DNA of 43,654 nt from Elusimicrobiota bacterium (GTDB lineage Bacteria > Elusimicrobiota > Elusimicrobia > Elusimicrobiales > UBA9959). The position numbers were made by a program, and so were the translations under genes. Location: contig JAUSCK010000127.1 of assembly GCA_030651035.1 (NCBI GenBank), forward strand, positions 1-43,654. The letters are read 5' to 3'. Of the stretch, positions 10,054 through 36,912 are shown in pieces; position 1 is the stretch's first letter, and each line of letters opens with the position of its first letter. Under the pieces are notes generated by a model. The model saw nothing but the letters and a program-made list of their open reading frames with translations, was not told the DNA's origin and did not search any database.

Positions 10054-10292
10054 ACGGTTGCACCTTCCGGCTTAACGCAAAGCCGCACCGTCCCGTTGCA
10101 GCGGTTTTATAGAAGCAGATTCAATAGAATGTCCCAACCCATAAAAATGTTACTAAATTTTACGGGTGTTTGTGCGTCTTGCTGTGTGATATTAGTTACA
10201 CCGCGGTTCCCGCCGCTTTTCACCTGCCGGCAGCGCGGCGGCTCCCTCTTTCCTTTAGCGAAGTCCGCACGGAACTGATATAATCGAATTAC
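10054..10292. other. Divergent intergenic region between the kinase and the fluoride riboswitch
   Basis: There is no gene here. The part next to the kinase is unremarkable; on the minus strand a TATAAA (10106-10111) could be a weak -10 for the kinase. The other end holds the promoter of the riboswitch transcript (10255-10284). Confidence 0.4.
10255..10284 (+). promoter_or_regulatory. Promoter of the fluoride-riboswitch transcript
   Basis: A perfect -10 TATAAT lies at 10279-10284. A poor -35 candidate (TTAGCG, 10255-10260) is 18 bases upstream. The expected start at about 10291 falls directly before the first bases of the riboswitch aptamer, which supports both calls. Confidence 0.6.
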
Positions 10293-10358
10293 GGCGATGA
10301 TGTCCGCCGCCCCGCGAGTTTCCGGGGGAACCGTCCGAAAGGACTGATGACCTCTACC
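10293..10358 (+). promoter_or_regulatory. Fluoride riboswitch aptamer (crcB motif)
   Basis: The 5' part GGCGATGATGTCCGCC and the 3' part CTGATGACCTCTAC match the two conserved blocks of the crcB/fluoride RNA. Between them are a hairpin CCCCG/CGGGG (10310-10314 with 10323-10327) and a tetraloop hairpin GTCC-GAAA-GGAC (10333-10344). Fluoride riboswitches bind fluoride through magnesium ions and are usually ON switches that prevent termination. Here the last aptamer bases are also the first arm of a terminator (10349-10385). The downstream gene is a CPA2 antiporter, a class of gene often found under this RNA. I identified it by eye; an Infernal search with the fluoride model would settle it. Confidence 0.9.
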
Positions 10359-10385
10359 TCAAGCCAAAGGTAGAGGTCTTTTTTT
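10349..10385 (+). terminator. Riboswitch expression platform: intrinsic terminator
   Basis: GACCTCTACCT (10349-10359) pairs perfectly with AGGTAGAGGTC (10368-10378), followed by seven T (10379-10385). The left arm includes the conserved 3' end of the fluoride aptamer. Aptamer and terminator are therefore mutually exclusive, which predicts read-through when fluoride is bound. Confidence 0.93.
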
Positions 10386-31525: not shown

Positions 31526-33673
31526 ATGTTCAAACAAGACAAGATCAGCGCTATACGGGCCGGGCTGGAGTCCATAGTCGGCAGGGAGAACGTCCGCACC
31601 GACGAGGCCGAGATACTCATGTATTCCTACGACGCCGGCATGGCCCGCGCCCGCCCCGACATAGTGATAAACTTCACCGCCGCGGAGCAGGTCGCCCCGG
31701 TGGTAAAATTGTTTTACGGGGCCGGCATTCCCTTCCTGCCCCGCCTGGCGGGGACCAACCTTTCCGGCGGCACCATCCCCCTCAGGGGCGGGGCCATACT
31801 CAACCTGTCCCGGCTTAAGAAGATACGGCAGATAGACACAGGCGCCCGCCTGGCCCTGGTGGAGCCCGGCGTGGTGAACCTTGAGCTGCAGAAGGCGCTG
31901 GAGCCTTTCGGTTTCTTTTACGCCCCCGACCCCTCCAGCCAGAAAGTCTCCACCATAGGCGGGAACGTCGGGGAGAACGCCGGCGGCCCGCTCTGCCTGA
32001 AATACGGCGTCACCTCCGACAATGTTGAAAAGCTGGAAGTGGTGACCCCGCAGGGCGAAGTGAGGACCTGGTCATACAAAGACCGGGGGCCGGACCTGAT
32101 GAGCGTTATAGTCGGTTCGGAGGGCACGCTGGGGATAGTGACCAGCGCCTGGCTTAAGATACTGCCCATTCCGCCCCTCATCAAGACCGCCTCGGCGGCT
32201 TTTCCTTCGCTGGAAAGCGCCCTGGGCGCGGTGACCCGCATCATTGGCAGCGGCATACTGCCCCGCGCCCTGGAGGCGATGGATAAAGTATCGATGGACG
32301 CCGCCCGGCTCGGCAAAGCGGACCCTTTTCCCGGCGGCACCGAAGCCGTGCTGATAATAGAGCTGGACGGCTCAGAGGAGGCCGTCCTGGCGGCGGAGCT
32401 TGAGACCGTGCACAAGATCTGCGCGGATAACGCGTGTTCCGCTTTTAAAATGGCCGGTGACGAAGCCGAGCGGACGCTGCTGTGGGCCGCCCGCAAGGGC
32501 GCCTACCCGGCCATGGCCCGCCTTGCCCCCGACGTGCTGGTAGAGGACGGCGTGGTGCCGAGGCCCCGCCTGCCCGAGGCCCTGAGGGAAACCCGCGCGA
32601 TAATTTCAAAGTACAAGCTCACGGCCGGCCTGCTTTTTCACGCCGGGGACGGGAACCTGCACCCCAACATACTTTTCGACCGCCGGGACATACAGGAAGT
32701 GAAGCGCGTAAGGAAAGCCGGCTATGAGATACTCAAGTCCTGCATACGGCTGGGCGGGACCATTTCCGGCGAGCACGGCATAGGCGTTGAAAAGAGGGTG
32801 GCGATGAACTGGCTCTACGGCCGCGAGGAGCTGGATTTTTTTCAAAGCATAAAGCGGGCCTTTGATCCGGCCGGCCTGGCGAACCCGGACAAGATACTGC
32901 CCGTGGCCACCGAGAAGGCCGCCGGCGCCCCTGGGTCGCAGGCTTTCGGAAGCCAGTTCGCCGGCCAGGAGAAGTCTTCCGTGTTTTCAGGCAGGGCCGC
33001 CCTGAGCCCGGCCGCGCGCGGCATTCTGGACGAGCTGCGCCTGCGCTCCGATGCCGGCGCCAGGACCGCGGTGACGGGCCTGGGCACCAGGCTGAAGGCG
33101 GAGAGAATAATGGAAGGCGCCAGGCCGCTGGGACTGGGAAGGCTTTCCGGCGGGGCCGAGATAGACAGGGAAAACCTGACCGCCAGGGTGGAAGCCGGTT
33201 TATCTTTTGAAGAGCTGGACGGGCAGCTAAGGGCGGCCGGGTTTTACCTGGACCTGCCCCCGCTGAAAGGCAGCGTAGGCGGATTGATCGCCTCAAAGGC
33301 CTGCCCGGAGATACGCGGCACCCTGCTGGGCCTGGAGGTGGCGCTGGCGGACGGCTCGCTGCTGGAGCTGGGCGGGAAAACCGTAAAGAACGTGGCCGGC
33401 TACGACGCGGTAAGGCTGTTTTGCGGCTCGCTGGGCGCCTACGGCGTAATAATAGCCGCCACTTTCAAACTCCGCGCCGGACCCGCCCCGCACTTTGGCC
33501 CGGGCACGGGAAAAAGTGCGGGGCTGGCCCCGGCCCGGGAGCCGCTTAAGGAGGCTCCGGACTGGGACGCCTTTGAGCCTGAAGCTATACACCGCAGGCT
33601 TAAAAAAGAATTTGACCCGCGTAACCTCCTCAACCCCTGGGTATATAGAGGGGAAGGTTTGAGGGATGAGTGA
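31526..33673 (+). CDS. GlcD-GlcE fusion: FAD-linked 2-hydroxyacid dehydrogenase
   Basis: This 715-residue protein joins two FAD-binding_4 units. Residues ~1-465 are a complete GlcD-like enzyme: RLAGTNLSGGTIP (about 73-85), STIGGNVGENAGGP, IVGSEGTLGIVT, AGDGNLHPN, SGEHGIG (about 413-419) and ANPDKILP. Residues ~470-715 resemble GlcE: AVTGLGTRLK, KGSVGGLIAS and KTVKNVAGYDAVRL, ending FDPRNLLNPW. Glycolate oxidase normally uses separate GlcD and GlcE. It oxidises glycolate or D-lactate and passes electrons to the Fe-S protein encoded next. Residues ~654-666 are encoded by a palindromic element (33485-33524). Confidence 0.9.
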   Translation: MFKQDKISAIRAGLESIVGRENVRTDEAEILMYSYDAGMARARPDIVINFTAAEQVAPVVKLFYGAGIPFLPRLAGTNLSGGTIPLRGGAILNLSRLKKIRQIDTGARLALVEPGVVNLELQKALEPFGFFYAPDPSSQKVSTIGGNVGENAGGPLCLKYGVTSDNVEKLEVVTPQGEVRTWSYKDRGPDLMSVIVGSEGTLGIVTSAWLKILPIPPLIKTASAAFPSLESALGAVTRIIGSGILPRALEAMDKVSMDAARLGKADPFPGGTEAVLIIELDGSEEAVLAAELETVHKICADNACSAFKMAGDEAERTLLWAARKGAYPAMARLAPDVLVEDGVVPRPRLPEALRETRAIISKYKLTAGLLFHAGDGNLHPNILFDRRDIQEVKRVRKAGYEILKSCIRLGGTISGEHGIGVEKRVAMNWLYGREELDFFQSIKRAFDPAGLANPDKILPVATEKAAGAPGSQAFGSQFAGQEKSSVFSGRAALSPAARGILDELRLRSDAGARTAVTGLGTRLKAERIMEGARPLGLGRLSGGAEIDRENLTARVEAGLSFEELDGQLRAAGFYLDLPPLKGSVGGLIASKACPEIRGTLLGLEVALADGSLLELGGKTVKNVAGYDAVRLFCGSLGAYGVIIAATFKLRAGPAPHFGPGTGKSAGLAPAREPLKEAPDWDAFEPEAIHRRLKKEFDPRNLLNPWVYRGEGLRDE
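33485..33524 (+). repeat. Coding palindromic element, copy 1 (in glcDE)
   Basis: Perfect 12-base arms, GCCCCGCACTTT (33485-33496) and AAAGTGCGGGGC (33513-33524), flank a 16-base spacer. The frame reads A-P-H-F-G...K-S-A-G. The same arms recur in the OsmC gene at 36555-36597 in a different reading frame. Confidence 0.9.
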
Positions 33674-33705
33674 TGAGGGATAAGGAAAACTCGGGGACCA
33701 CTTCA

Positions 33706-35163
33706 ATGAGCGACAACAACTTGACGGACAGCGAAGAGCAGGTTAAAACCACCTGGGAGCCGGACTACGACCAGTCCTCGCCGGGAGCGCGCCATTTCCA
33801 CAACGAAGTGAACGAGCTCTACCCCCATGAGAGCGCCGACAGGCACCTGGGCGCCCTGCTTACCGACCTGGGAGAAAGGAATCTTTACGACGCGGCCGCG
33901 CAGTGCAACCGCTGCGGCTATTGCGAGACCTCCTGCCCCACCTACATGCTGACCGGCCGGGAAACCATATCCGCGCGCGGCCGCAACCAGTTCGTGCGGA
34001 TGCTGGTGGAAGGGCAGGCGAGGGACCCGGTCGCGGCGACCGAGTCCCTGTCTACATGCTTATTGTGCGGCGCCTGCTCCAGCGCCTGCTACGCCAAAGT
34101 TCCGACTCCCGACATAGTGCTTGAGGGCAGGCGCGCCCTGACCGGCTACGGGGAGGGCTTCTTCGCCCGGGCCGCCGTAGGCACGCTGCTGAACGCGCCG
34201 CGGCTCTTCGCCTTCTGGCTGAAGTTGGCTTATCTCGCAAAGATGACCGGCCTTCCCCGGCTGGCGGCCCGCATGGGGCTTTACGACTTTATAGGCATGC
34301 CCGGGCTGGCGGAAGCGGAGAGCGCTATAGAGCACACGCCCCTGCGCTTCGCCTCCGAGATCCTGCGCAGGGACCAGGAGCTGAAGCCGCAGGGCAAAAG
34401 GCAGGCCAACTGGGCTTATTTCGCGGCGTGCGGTCCCAATTTTGTTTTCACGGAGATAGCCCTTGCCACCGTGCGGGTGCTTAAAAAGAACTGCGGCGAC
34501 GGCGTCTTTACGGATAACCTCTGCTGCGGCCTGATGGCCCACAATTACGGCCGCCTCGGCGACGCCCGCGAGTTCGCCCGCCGCAACATAGCCCGCTACG
34601 AGGAACTTAAGGCCGGGCTGGGTGAATTCCCGGTCATAGCCGACTGCTCGTCGTGCGCGGCCTTCATGAAATCCTATGAGCAGCTTTTTACGGGGGACGA
34701 GGAATGGCGCCCCAGGGCCAGGGCTTTCGCGGCGGCGGTAAAAGACATACTGGAGTTCATCCCCCCGGAAAAAGCCGGGCGCGCCGCGCCCGCCGCGCTT
34801 GCGCAGGCCGGCCGCGTCACCTACCACGATTCCTGCCGCGCGGCCCACGGGCAGGGGCTGCGGGCCGAGCCCAGGGCGGTGCTGCGCAAGCTGGCCGGCG
34901 AGCAGTACCGCGAGCTGCCGGAAAGCGACTGGTGCTGCGGCGGGGCCGGGGCTTTCGCCTTCACCCAGCCGGAGATCTCCAGGGCTGTGCTGGACCGCAA
35001 GCTCAGGAACATAGCCTCGGTGCAGGCGGACACGGTGGTGGTCGGCGCCACCTCCTGCCTGGCGCAGATCAACGCCGGGCTAAGGGAAGCCTACCCCTCC
35101 GCCAGGGCGGTGCACTACAGCGTGTTCCTCGACGAAGTGACAAGGGAAGACGGGCAGCAATAG
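33706..35163 (+). CDS. GlcF/LldE-like Fe-S oxidoreductase with two CCG domains
   Basis: I start it at 33706 (MSDNNLTDS), after GGGGA; starts at 33670 (GTG) or 33673 are possible but lie in repeat-like DNA overlapping the previous stop. The protein has about 485 residues. Two 4Fe-4S sites are visible: CNRCGYCETSCP (about 80-91) and CLLCGACSSACY (about 126-137). Two CCG domains follow: DNLCCGLMAHNYG with DCSSCAAF, and DSCRAAHGQ with WCCGGAGAF. It carries electrons from the GlcDE flavoprotein to the quinone pool or another acceptor at the membrane. This matches GlcF or LldE roles. Confidence 0.9.
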   Translation: MSDNNLTDSEEQVKTTWEPDYDQSSPGARHFHNEVNELYPHESADRHLGALLTDLGERNLYDAAAQCNRCGYCETSCPTYMLTGRETISARGRNQFVRMLVEGQARDPVAATESLSTCLLCGACSSACYAKVPTPDIVLEGRRALTGYGEGFFARAAVGTLLNAPRLFAFWLKLAYLAKMTGLPRLAARMGLYDFIGMPGLAEAESAIEHTPLRFASEILRRDQELKPQGKRQANWAYFAACGPNFVFTEIALATVRVLKKNCGDGVFTDNLCCGLMAHNYGRLGDAREFARRNIARYEELKAGLGEFPVIADCSSCAAFMKSYEQLFTGDEEWRPRARAFAAAVKDILEFIPPEKAGRAAPAALAQAGRVTYHDSCRAAHGQGLRAEPRAVLRKLAGEQYRELPESDWCCGGAGAFAFTQPEISRAVLDRKLRNIASVQADTVVVGATSCLAQINAGLREAYPSARAVHYSVFLDEVTREDGQQ

Positions 35164-35187
35164 ATCTGCCGCGAACTTGAGTATTTA

Positions 35188-35220
35188 TTGACAGTCGTTT
35201 TACCGGGATAATGCTAGAAT
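35188..35220 (+). promoter_or_regulatory. Promoter-like region of the HD-GYP gene
   Basis: A perfect -35 TTGACA (35188-35193) precedes two -10 candidates: GATAAT (35207-35212, spacer 13) and TAGAAT (35215-35220, spacer 21). Neither has the usual 17-base spacing, so the exact boxes are unsure. TAGAAT lies six bases before the ATG and no Shine-Dalgarno is present. Confidence 0.4.
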
Positions 35221-35226
35221 AATTCT

Positions 35227-36387
35227 ATGACCAGGGTCGAAGAACTTGAAAACCGCCTGCGCCTCCTTGTGAATTTCGGCGGGGTCGTGTCCAAGGAAAC
35301 CAACCTTAACAAGCTGCTTGAGCTGATCGCCGAGCAGGTTAAGGCCATTTTGGTCTGCGACCGCTGCAGCGTCTTCATCCTTGACCGCCAGACCAACGAG
35401 CTCTGGTCCAAGGTGGCGCTGGGGATGCAGCACACCGAGATACGCGTGCCTTTCGGCAAGGGCATAGTGGGGCACGTGGCCTCCACCGGGCTGACGCTCA
35501 ACATCAATGACGCCTACCAGGACGACCGCTTCACCCACGACATCGACCGCCTCACTGGCTACCGTACCCGCAGCATACTGGCCATGCCGCTTAAGAACGT
35601 AAGCGGCCACATCATAGGCGTGTTCGAGGCCATGAACAAGAACGGCACGCCTTTTAATGTGGACGACGAGGGCATACTGCAGCTTATAAGCTCGCTGGCC
35701 GCCTCGGGCATCGAGAACGCGCAGCTTTACGAGAGCCTCTCCAAGTCCCAGCTGGAAACTATTTACCGCCTGGCCGTCACCGCCGAATACCGCGACCAGC
35801 AGGACACGGCCATACACCTGCGGCATATAAGCGAATACTCCGCGCTGATAGCGCAGGGCCTCGGCCTGCCGGAACGCGAGGTGGAGAACATCCGCTACGC
35901 GAGCCCGCTGCACGACATCGGCAAGGTGGGCATAGCCGACGCCATACTGCTGAAGCCGGGCAAGCTGACCGTGGAAGAATTCGAGGAGATGAAGAAGCAC
36001 ACCGTCTACGGGGCCAAGATACTCTGCAACGCGGAGAGCTCCCTGCTGCAGATCGCCTGCAAGGTGGCCGGCTCGCACCATGAGAAATTCGACGGCACGG
36101 GCTACCCTGCCCGCCTGAAGGCCGAGCAGATACCCATCTACGCGCGCATAGTTTCGGTGGCGGATGTATTTGACGCCCTGTGCGCGCAGCGCGTATACAA
36201 GCCAAAATGGGATCCCCAGAAGGCCCGCGAGTATATACTCGGGGAAACAGGCAAGGCCTTTGACCCCTTAGTTGTGGAGGCCTTCGAGAAGGTTTACGGC
36301 GAGATCCTCAAGATGCACGCCATAGGCGACGGCAAGAGCACCATCATCCCCGGCATAACCAAAGAGCTGCACCGCCATACTTATTAG
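35227..36387 (+). CDS. GAF-HD-GYP cyclic-di-GMP phosphodiesterase
   Basis: This 386-residue protein has an N-terminal GAF domain (about 20-175, CDRCSVFILD, VPFGKGIVGHVA, SILAMPL) and a C-terminal HD-GYP domain (about 180-365). The metal-binding motif HDIGKVGI and the signature HHEKFDGTGYP are intact, as is the late SVADVFDALCA. Such proteins hydrolyse cyclic-di-GMP or related dinucleotides; GAF senses the signal. It is soluble. It stands alone with its own terminator. Confidence 0.92.
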   Translation: MTRVEELENRLRLLVNFGGVVSKETNLNKLLELIAEQVKAILVCDRCSVFILDRQTNELWSKVALGMQHTEIRVPFGKGIVGHVASTGLTLNINDAYQDDRFTHDIDRLTGYRTRSILAMPLKNVSGHIIGVFEAMNKNGTPFNVDDEGILQLISSLAASGIENAQLYESLSKSQLETIYRLAVTAEYRDQQDTAIHLRHISEYSALIAQGLGLPEREVENIRYASPLHDIGKVGIADAILLKPGKLTVEEFEEMKKHTVYGAKILCNAESSLLQIACKVAGSHHEKFDGTGYPARLKAEQIPIYARIVSVADVFDALCAQRVYKPKWDPQKAREYILGETGKAFDPLVVEAFEKVYGEILKMHAIGDGKSTIIPGITKELHRHTY

Positions 36388-36409
36388 GCACAGGCCGGCC
36401 GGAGCCCGC

Positions 36410-36439
36410 AAAAGAGCCTGAAACTTTCAGGCTCTTTTT
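36410..36439 (+). terminator. Intrinsic terminator after the HD-GYP gene
   Basis: AGAGCCTGAAA pairs with TTTCAGGCTCT around a single C, followed by a run of five T. It lies about 20 bases after the stop codon. The next gene, OsmC, therefore needs its own promoter. Confidence 0.92.
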
Positions 36440-36474
36440 GCATCTAATAGTTAGAAACATTAAAGGAGAACATT

Positions 36475-36912
36475 ATGAGCGACATGGAAATAGTATTCCC
36501 GGGCGGAAAAAAGATCAGCGCGCTGTGGCACGGTTTTGAAATAAAGACGGACCAGCCCCGCACTTTGGCTGCTGGCTCAGCGGAAAAAGTGCGGGGCCAG
36601 CCGGCCGGCGGCGGCGGCGAAGGCTCGGCCCCCACACCTTTCGACCTTTTCCTGGCCTCGCTGGGGACCTGCGCCGGGATCTTCGCGCTGGGCTTCATAC
36701 AGTCCAGGGGGCTGAGCGCCGAGGGATTAAAAATAAACGTTTCCTTTGAACAGGACGAGGCCACCCACCTCCTGAGCAAGGCGGCCATGAGGATAACCCT
36801 GCCCAAGGACTTCCCCCCCAAGTACAAAGACGCCGTCATAAAAGCCGCCGAGCAGTGCCTCGTAAAGCGCACCATGGACAACCCCCCCGCTTTCGAGATT
36901 ACGGCGGTTTAA
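36475..36912 (+). CDS. OsmC family peroxiredoxin-like protein
   Basis: This 145-residue protein has both catalytic cysteines of the OsmC/Ohr family: SLGTCAGIFALGF (about residue 65) and QCLVKR (about 122). OsmC proteins reduce organic hydroperoxides, but many YhfA-like members have unknown activity. Between the usual DQP (about residue 26) and the GGG...APTPFDLFLASLG block there is an extra ~15-residue insert, RTLAAGSAEKVRGQ, encoded by the palindromic element at 36555-36597. Its start has a good AAAGGAG. The insert would lie in a surface loop. Confidence 0.9.
   Translation: MSDMEIVFPGGKKISALWHGFEIKTDQPRTLAAGSAEKVRGQPAGGGGEGSAPTPFDLFLASLGTCAGIFALGFIQSRGLSAEGLKINVSFEQDEATHLLSKAAMRITLPKDFPPKYKDAVIKAAEQCLVKRTMDNPPAFEITAV
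36555..36597 (+). repeat. Coding palindromic element, copy 2 (in osmC)
   Basis: The same 12-base arms as in glcDE: GCCCCGCACTTT (36555-36566) and AAAGTGCGGGGC (36586-36597), here around a 19-base spacer. The two copies differ in length by exactly three bases. The frame differs from copy 1: it reads P-R-T-L...K-V-R-G here. Confidence 0.9.

Follow-up and report, generated by a model that had tools for sequence, protein, structure and literature searches.

A dispersed family of 33–41 nt hairpins found in frame within unrelated genes of Elusimicrobiales

Introduction

Why should two unrelated genes carry the same palindrome, read in two different frames? The question is raised by a 43,654 nt stretch of DNA from an Elusimicrobiota bacterium (hereafter "the window": contig JAUSCK010000127.1 of assembly GCA_030651035.1, positions 1 to 43,654, forward strand). 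Perfect 12-base arm pairs, GCCCCGCACTTT...AAAGTGCGGGGC, are present at 33485–33524, within a gene for a fused FAD-linked oxidase (glcDE), and at 36555–36597, within osmC. The original prediction, made from the window alone, was that a dispersed palindromic element inserts into proteins here, much as Rickettsia palindromic elements (RPEs) do. We report that the observation is real and that the two palindromes are members of a hairpin family. The idea of an element that inserts into proteins is borne out by 32 exact copies in the genome and by relatives of OsmC that lack the extra segment.

Results

The hairpins proper (CCCC...GGGG; Table 1) are 38 and 41 nt long, one codon apart, and are read in different frames (phase 1 in glcDE, phase 0 in osmC), in agreement with the original prediction. 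The assembly to which the window belongs (G000) is a draft Elusimicrobiales metagenome assembly of 4.47 Mb in 320 contigs. Searching it for exact copies (CCCCGCACTTT-N5..30-AAAGTGCGGGG) returned 32 hairpins, and the reversed pattern, used as a control, returned none. Hence, chance is excluded as the source of the window palindromes, and the family is dispersed rather than limited to two copies, as had been anticipated. Single arms occur 100 times in the genome (control, twice); 64 of these are paired within exact hairpins, and most others lie within degenerate hairpins. On the strength of this pairing, we rejected a Haemophilus-type uptake signal, the core of which we take to be AAGTGCGGT.

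We extended the search to 340 genomes of the phylum, using exact arms only, such that older copies elsewhere would be missed. Exact copies are present in seven genomes, all from the same family as the window: 32 in its own genome, 16 each in G041 and G044, 10 in G049, two in G038, and one each in G054 and G008. All 78 copies are 33–41 nt long. A fuzzy scan of fetched loci, allowing up to three arm mismatches, found 58 own-genome copies beyond the two in the window, 38 in other carriers, and one in G019, the closest relative; because exact arms guided the choice of own-genome loci, the scan overlooks copies in which both arms are mutated. Viral contigs searched for the exact hairpin gave no match, and open-access literature searched under Elusimicrobia or Elusimicrobiota yielded nothing on such repeats. 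One loop type, CTCGTTTACAG, is common to the window's own genome and G044, which belongs to another genus, and is found at different sites (L004:1501, L027:2003, L163 and L164). This suggests that one subfamily has spread recently or has been passed from one genus to another.

Are the hairpins insertions? The best relatives of OsmC come from Elusimicrobia or Elusimicrobiales metagenome assemblies. The extra segment that had been noted in OsmC, 15 residues in length, is missing from 25 of 25 relatives with at least 60% identity among the matches listed, and none of these 25 carries the segment without the palindrome. At the DNA level, the insert measures 45 nt (41 + 4), with CCAG directly repeated at its edges; a single CCAG is present in the nearest relatives. 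Alignment with insert-free homologues therefore gave a clean empty site for osmC. For glcDE it gave no exact junction: the site is a variable linker, in which 11 of 22 relatives among the matches listed share one 14-residue gap (42 nt = 38 + 4), and the remaining relatives align unevenly across a linker that is too divergent to read. The original prediction had raised the possibility that the inserts fall in surface loops. In a structural model of OsmC (40 sequences; mean predicted local distance difference test score, pLDDT, 78.9), the insert is within residues 27–49, which are predicted to be disordered, between a strand (21–26) and a helix (55–77); this is the sole segment of at least three residues with pLDDT <50.

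We compared the 32 own-genome sites with 1.595 Mb of G019 sequence. At least one flank was matched at 18 sites, and no flank at 14. The element is in none of the G019 alignments, although four of the 18 are one-flank matches only, two of those four (L010) could not be drawn, and several others are uneven. The only family hairpin in the G019 sequence, from the fuzzy scan, is on a contig without any flank matches. Empty sites with the same kind of duplication are seen at L003 (CAGG) and L001 (TAAA; plus another 12-nt difference upstream). At L052, compared with other relatives, native CTGG has become CTTG-hairpin-TTGG. L010a pairs 5ʹ CTTG with a retained native CGGG at the 3ʹ flank, and L010b pairs native CTGG at the 5ʹ flank with 3ʹ CGAG. 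L034 has two hairpins and three CNNG tetranucleotides. Alignments are less clear for L020, L032, and some rows of L034 and L010.

The flanks of 95 copies with up to two arm mismatches tell a similar story. Identical 4-nt flanks are found at 22 copies, against a mean of 2.4 in shuffles (0 of 2000 shuffles reach 22); hence, the hairpin is an insertion element. Agreement between flanks exceeds expectation in exactly four columns and is at expectation immediately outside them, and there is a small excess of three-of-four matches (18 versus 11.3 expected). The tetranucleotide is CNNG or TNNA on the 5ʹ side of 82 of the 95 copies and on the 3ʹ side of 52; for exact own-genome copies, the corresponding counts are 32/32 at the 5ʹ foot and 18/32 on the 3ʹ side. 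CTTG, TTTA, CCTG, CAGG and TAAA are the commonest 5ʹ tetranucleotides, and CGGGG is preferred upstream. Identical repeats are seen at only two of 39 copies with CTTG, CCTG, TTTA or CTCG at the 5ʹ side, versus 20 of the remaining 56, a split chosen post hoc. Plain target duplication fits part of the copies; in others, one side bears a recurring tetranucleotide that is perhaps derived from the donor.

It is striking that copies within genes are confined to lengths that preserve the reading frame. Using gene calls from a codon-usage script trained on G019, we assessed all 78 exact copies from the seven genomes. All 32 in-gene copies are 35, 38 or 41 nt long (13, 14 or 15 codons together with 4 nt), versus 18 of the 46 copies outside genes (Fisher p = 3.8e-9). 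All six combinations of orientation and phase are present (phases 0, 1 and 2: sense 8, 14 and 1; antisense 4, 3 and 2). Copies are in genes more often in the window's own genome (22/32) than in the other carriers (10/46), and for frame-neutral exact copies in the own genome the proportion is 22/25, close to the coding density of the window (~0.92). In a wider set that includes degenerate copies, 42 of the 45 copies within genes keep the frame. Of the three that do not, one is close to a stop codon, one has two mismatches, and one is the 65-nt version shortened by the scan. All six frames of the glcDE hairpin are free of stop codons (APHFGPGTGKSAG and PRTLARAREKVRG, for example), as are those of 32 of the 48 distinct hairpins, versus 13% of shuffles.

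The hosts are diverse. Of 30 host proteins scanned, including hosts of degenerate copies, 29 have a Pfam match. In the window's own genome they include DNA polymerase I, DnaX (two copies), IspG, AnmK, a GH94 enzyme and a Mur-ligase-type protein, as well as a PurB-like adenylosuccinate lyase with two copies in tandem (the second degenerate), a glycerate kinase with three in tandem (two degenerate), methylmalonyl-CoA mutase (copy at the N-terminus) and PanB (copy near the C-terminus). Hosts in other carriers include TsaD, an electron transfer flavoprotein domain protein and Memo-AMMECR1.

Oriented so that GG is 5ʹ, the element reads CCCCGCACTTT GG C...G AA AAAGTGCGGGG: an outer stem of 11 bp is followed by a GG/AA mismatch, which is conserved, and by an inner hairpin, which varies. 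Among the 48 distinct exact hairpins, GG is conserved in 45 and AA in 44. The first inner pair is Watson-Crick in 46 of 48, but is nearly invariant and hence uninformative; the second is Watson-Crick in 40 of 48, with several pair types, versus 30.1 in shuffles (0 of 2000 shuffles reach it). Thus, the inner stem covaries. Folding of six strands of four hairpins as single-stranded DNA gave -14.5 to -18.1 kcal/mol (z -5.0 to -6.3). Copies occur as singles, direct tandems, and inverted pairs with one common tetranucleotide (L008, L020 and L021), and there are two longer relatives, 65 and 117 nt arm to arm.

Other arrangements were seen in passing. A longer dispersed repeat (~75–200 bp) consists of a degenerate hairpin copy followed by CCTACCGCAGGGG (L031:1952-2163, L036:1942-2146, L038:1951-2156 and L040:1947-2031). 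One end of a 37-nt copy (L015:1501-1537) coincides with the first five bases of a minus-strand tRNA-Pro(TGG) gene (1434-1505), and the hairpin foot thus provides part of the acceptor stem. Copies are also found inside the loop of repeated terminator-like hairpins resembling AACCGCCGGG...CCCGGCGGTT (L017:2014; L018:2069, 2880 and 3833; L337:100-160). Terminators of this type are also present in G019, where they lack the element, and one in G041 contains a degenerate copy.

We looked for an enzyme that might mobilize the hairpin. The window's own genome has nine Y1_Tnp genes; their flanks were read, and none is bounded by the hairpin, several ending in other inverted repeats. None of 20 Y1 genes in G041, G044, G049 and G038 is directly bounded by the hairpin: 17 of these loci have no arm within one mismatch, two have a single one-mismatch arm, and the other is L337, discussed below. 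For tyrosine recombinases (Phage_integrase) in three genomes, 30 of 34 matches were examined; none has paired arms, and three have single one-mismatch arms. IS1380-type and DDE_Tnp_1 genes gave no match in G041 or G049, and 11 loci from the other two genomes searched are without arms. By eye, we saw no full-length copy among the 100 exact arms of the 320-contig draft (100 of 139 near matches listed). A search of the 1.595 Mb of G019 for over-represented palindromes of the same design returned, as its first nine groups, terminators, GC-rich chance palindromes, an N run and one Y1-type repeat.

The nine own-genome Y1 genes (L132-L140) encode 242–351 aa (stop to stop), and several are flanked by inverted repeats containing GGGGAC. 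They resemble genes flanked by terminal inverted repeats (TIRs), termed "TIRYT", with a GGGGWSAS motif, as described in PMC3733652. The fetched part of G019 also has four stand-alone hairpins of the type GGGACAGGCTGCTTT...AAAGCAGCCTGTCCC, which are perhaps a non-autonomous form of this TIRYT-like Y1 group.

Table 1. Hairpin copies, flanking tetranucleotides and host genes in the window
Feature	Position	Strand	Description
Host gene 1	31526..33673	+	Fused FAD-linked oxidase, GlcD-GlcE-like (FAD_binding_4 in two stretches, FAD-oxidase_C)
5ʹ flanking tetranucleotide, copy 1	33482..33485	+	CCCG, CNNG type
Hairpin copy 1	33486..33523	+	38 nt; loop type CCCGGGCACGGG, the commonest in the own genome
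3ʹ flanking tetranucleotide, copy 1	33524..33527	+	CTGG, CNNG type; differs from 5ʹ CCCG
Host gene 2	36475..36912	+	OsmC-family protein
Target duplication, 5ʹ copy	36552..36555	+	CCAG
Hairpin copy 2	36556..36596	+	41 nt
Target duplication, 3ʹ copy	36597..36600	+	CCAG; present once in empty sites of relatives

The window also contains a fluoride riboswitch at 10284–10363 on the plus strand (Rfam RF01734, 41.9 bits).

Discussion

What are the window copies? We consider it highly probable that they represent a minimal non-coding insertion element that is moved in trans by an enzyme. The unit is the 33–41 nt hairpin, with its outer stem, GG/AA mismatch and variable inner hairpin. Insertion adds the hairpin and 4 nt, for a total added length of L+4, which is shown at several sites; the target has the form YNNR, in most cases CNNG or TNNA, and is frequently preceded by CGGGG. 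Some copies have the native 4 nt on both sides, as a 4-bp target duplication, and others have a different, recurring tetranucleotide such as CTTG on one side. Where L+4 is a multiple of three, the insert would be translated as an ordinary part of the protein, the arms being without a stop codon in any frame; the peptide encoded in osmC probably occupies a tolerant loop, judging from the model. Where L+4 is not a multiple of three, in-gene copies would be purged and intergenic copies would survive. The element is likely to be selfish or neutral rather than to serve a host function.

Several observations weigh against this interpretation. Identical 4-nt flanks are absent from 73 of the 95 copies. 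Decay of a 4-nt duplication, as the sole account of this, is partly rejected: 32 of the 57 own-genome copies in the flank count have perfect arms, and 26 of those 32 have no identical flanks, so simple decay is insufficient. At L015:1898, comparison with G019 shows 34 nt between TTTA and CTATATAG, without a duplication. In the other six carriers, genes hold only 10 of the 25 exact copies that are frame-neutral; therefore, near-neutrality of insertion into genes is not general. The gene calls come from our own script, and a frame-breaking copy, which splits its gene, tends to be scored as outside it; the frame-lock contrast could thus be partly circular. Nonetheless, Pfam matches on both sides of several inserts, together with the lengths at empty sites, argue that the frame lock is mostly real. 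Neither a mobilizing gene nor an autonomous copy was found among the Y1, tyrosine-recombinase, IS1380-type and DDE_Tnp_1 genes of these draft assemblies, in which an autonomous copy may be hidden and copies may be lost in gaps. Lastly, the Y1 locus L337 (G041) lies between two copies, neither of which forms an end of the gene: an exact one ~0.9 kb away on one side and, ~1.4 kb away on the other, a degenerate one within a terminator-like hairpin.

Which class of enzyme would move such an element? Three candidates can be named, each a sub-case of the in-trans insertion element, so their probabilities overlap with it; we choose none of them because the mixed 4-nt flank pattern is the feature we understand least. 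A strict repetitive extragenic palindrome (REP) family would consist of tetranucleotide-tagged hairpins that a Y1 (RAYT) transposase mobilizes in single-stranded form, with CTTG or TTTA at the 5ʹ foot serving as the tag. Intragenic REPs have precedents (PMC3733652). The size, the imperfect hairpin, the inverted pairs with one common tetranucleotide and the bias for CNNG/TNNA at the 5ʹ foot all fit, as do the nine own-genome Y1 genes and the copies at a distance on each side of L337. We nonetheless regard it as doubtful: the middle bases of the tetranucleotide vary widely, and identical 4-nt repeats, which Y1-type transposition is not known to make, occur about nine times as often as by chance. 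Furthermore, the hairpin does not directly bound any of the 29 Y1 genes in five carriers, several of the nine in the window's own genome end in other inverted repeats, and G034 and G035 have eight or nine Y1 genes yet no exact copy. The clean 4-bp duplications at 22 of 95 copies, the inverted termini and the 65 and 117 nt versions speak for a second candidate, a miniature inverted-repeat transposable element (MITE), derived from an insertion sequence with a DDE transposase, TIR CCCCGCACTTT and a 4-bp target duplication by internal deletion down to its two ends. This, too, we think rather unlikely. No full-length copy was seen among the exact arms listed; G041 and G049, with 16 and 10 copies, have no match to the two families searched, IS1380-type and DDE_Tnp_1; two abutting ends in <42 bp would leave little space for a paired-end complex; and copies such as L010a retain native CGGG on one side while bearing CTTG on the other. 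The third candidate is integration resembling that of a site-specific recombinase: the joined ends would form a core with inverted arms, GTGCGGGG-YNNR-CCCCGCAC, and a 4-nt spacer, and insertion would leave the donor's spacer at one flank and the target's at the other. The coupling sequences of Tn916-type elements behave in this way. The target flanks resemble the core (CGGGG before YNNR), the two L010 sites each pair a native with a new tetranucleotide, L006:1501, in a poorly conserved linker, seems to keep native CCGG on its 3ʹ side, and identical repeats are scarce among copies with the recurring 5ʹ tetranucleotides. However, no integrase gene examined has paired arms, a 42-bp double-stranded circle is implausible, such that a single-strand route would be needed, and the identical 4-nt repeats would require a preference for homology. 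Hence, we hold this mechanism only as a tentative possibility. With similar reserve, we propose that a ~38-nt hairpin may be a self-sufficient integration substrate: its arms and a 4-nt spacer would form a recombination core that integrates beside look-alike half-cores, carrying the spacer along, and in the window's own genome it might have become a coding form, locked to 13–15 codons, that spreads in protein genes almost as if they were neutral territory.

Two explanations do not share the premise of a mobile, translated insert. A conserved functional hairpin (a terminator, a regulatory RNA or a protein-binding site) could account for the conserved GG/AA mismatch, the covarying inner stem and the four copies in loops of terminator-like hairpins (L017 and L018). 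It is very unlikely, given the unrelated hosts, both orientations and all frames; the element is not seen at the matched G019 sites, no orthologous position is conserved at the sites compared, and the four sources searched gave no match to Rfam where the element lies. Alternatively, the insert could be skipped by ribosomal bypassing, or removed from the RNA, and never appear in the protein. Skipping has been described for hairpin elements in some mitochondria, and here the hairpin is stable, has short direct repeats beside it in some copies, and lies within conserved genes. Such a mechanism would have no need for lengths that are multiples of three, yet every one of the 32 exact copies located in genes preserves the frame. 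Because gene calling selected open frames, the absence of in-frame stops is in part built into the data. We consider skipping extremely improbable.

The family places protein-coding palindromes in a GC-rich lineage far from Rickettsia. The copies, empty sites and length classes are sufficient to measure selection directly, with only frame-neutral exact copies in genes and other lengths outside. The natural insertions of 13–15 residues in DNA polymerase I, DnaX, IspG, a PurB-like lyase and TsaD should be useful for mapping insertion tolerance. Moreover, the mobile unit is very small, and its enzyme would be worth finding.

How does the family compare with known systems? RPEs are palindromic repeats found in frame in many unrelated conserved proteins, and also in intergenic regions, with a counterpart in Wolbachia (PMC10969869, PMC2229807). 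The hairpin family likewise inserts a palindrome in frame in genes for unrelated proteins. The likeness to RPEs that was originally proposed therefore holds for behavior, in a comparison of described features rather than sequences, but not for length or for the 4-nt duplications. RPEs are 105–146 bp long and their target duplication is marked "?" in PMC2229807, whereas our exact copies are 33–41 nt, with two longer relatives of 65 and 117 nt, and a 4-nt duplication is shown for part of the family. PMC10969869 names ten RPE families, whereas the hairpins are a single family that occurs in all six frames. MITEs of bacteria, listed as 70–300 bp in PMC3733652, share with the hairpins terminal inverted repeats (arms of 11 bp here), target duplication (22/95) and a non-autonomous nature; they differ in that our exact copies are shorter and no parent element was found in the 320-contig draft. 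With respect to a Tn916-like core with a coupling sequence, no integrase gene has the core at its ends in 30 of 34 loci from three genomes.

In size and hairpin shape, the family is nearer to REPs than to RPEs. As described in PMC3733652, REPs are 20–40 bp hairpins, single or in inverted pairs, and most are intergenic; intragenic REPs are found in several species, many of them in DNA synthesis and repair genes including that for polymerase I, with examples in Opitutus terrae and in Rickettsia conorii, the RPE-4 and RPE-6 of which are classed there as REPs. Our hairpins are also imperfect and of REP size (up to 41 nt), occur as singles and inverted pairs, and are in some cases within genes, including that for DNA polymerase I. 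Unlike REPs, they have no fixed GTAG or CGTC tag at the foot, are in part flanked by 4-nt target repeats, are mostly within genes in the window's own genome (22 of 32 exact copies, with 10 of 46 in the other carriers; most REPs are intergenic in the account of PMC3733652), and do not directly bound any RAYT gene among the nine Y1 genes of that genome and 20 in four other carriers. Because the hairpins are too short for RPEs, and have neither a GTAG/CGTC tag nor a bounded RAYT gene, assignment to either class is incomplete. The family behaves like RPEs and intragenic REPs, and fully shares the defining features of neither.

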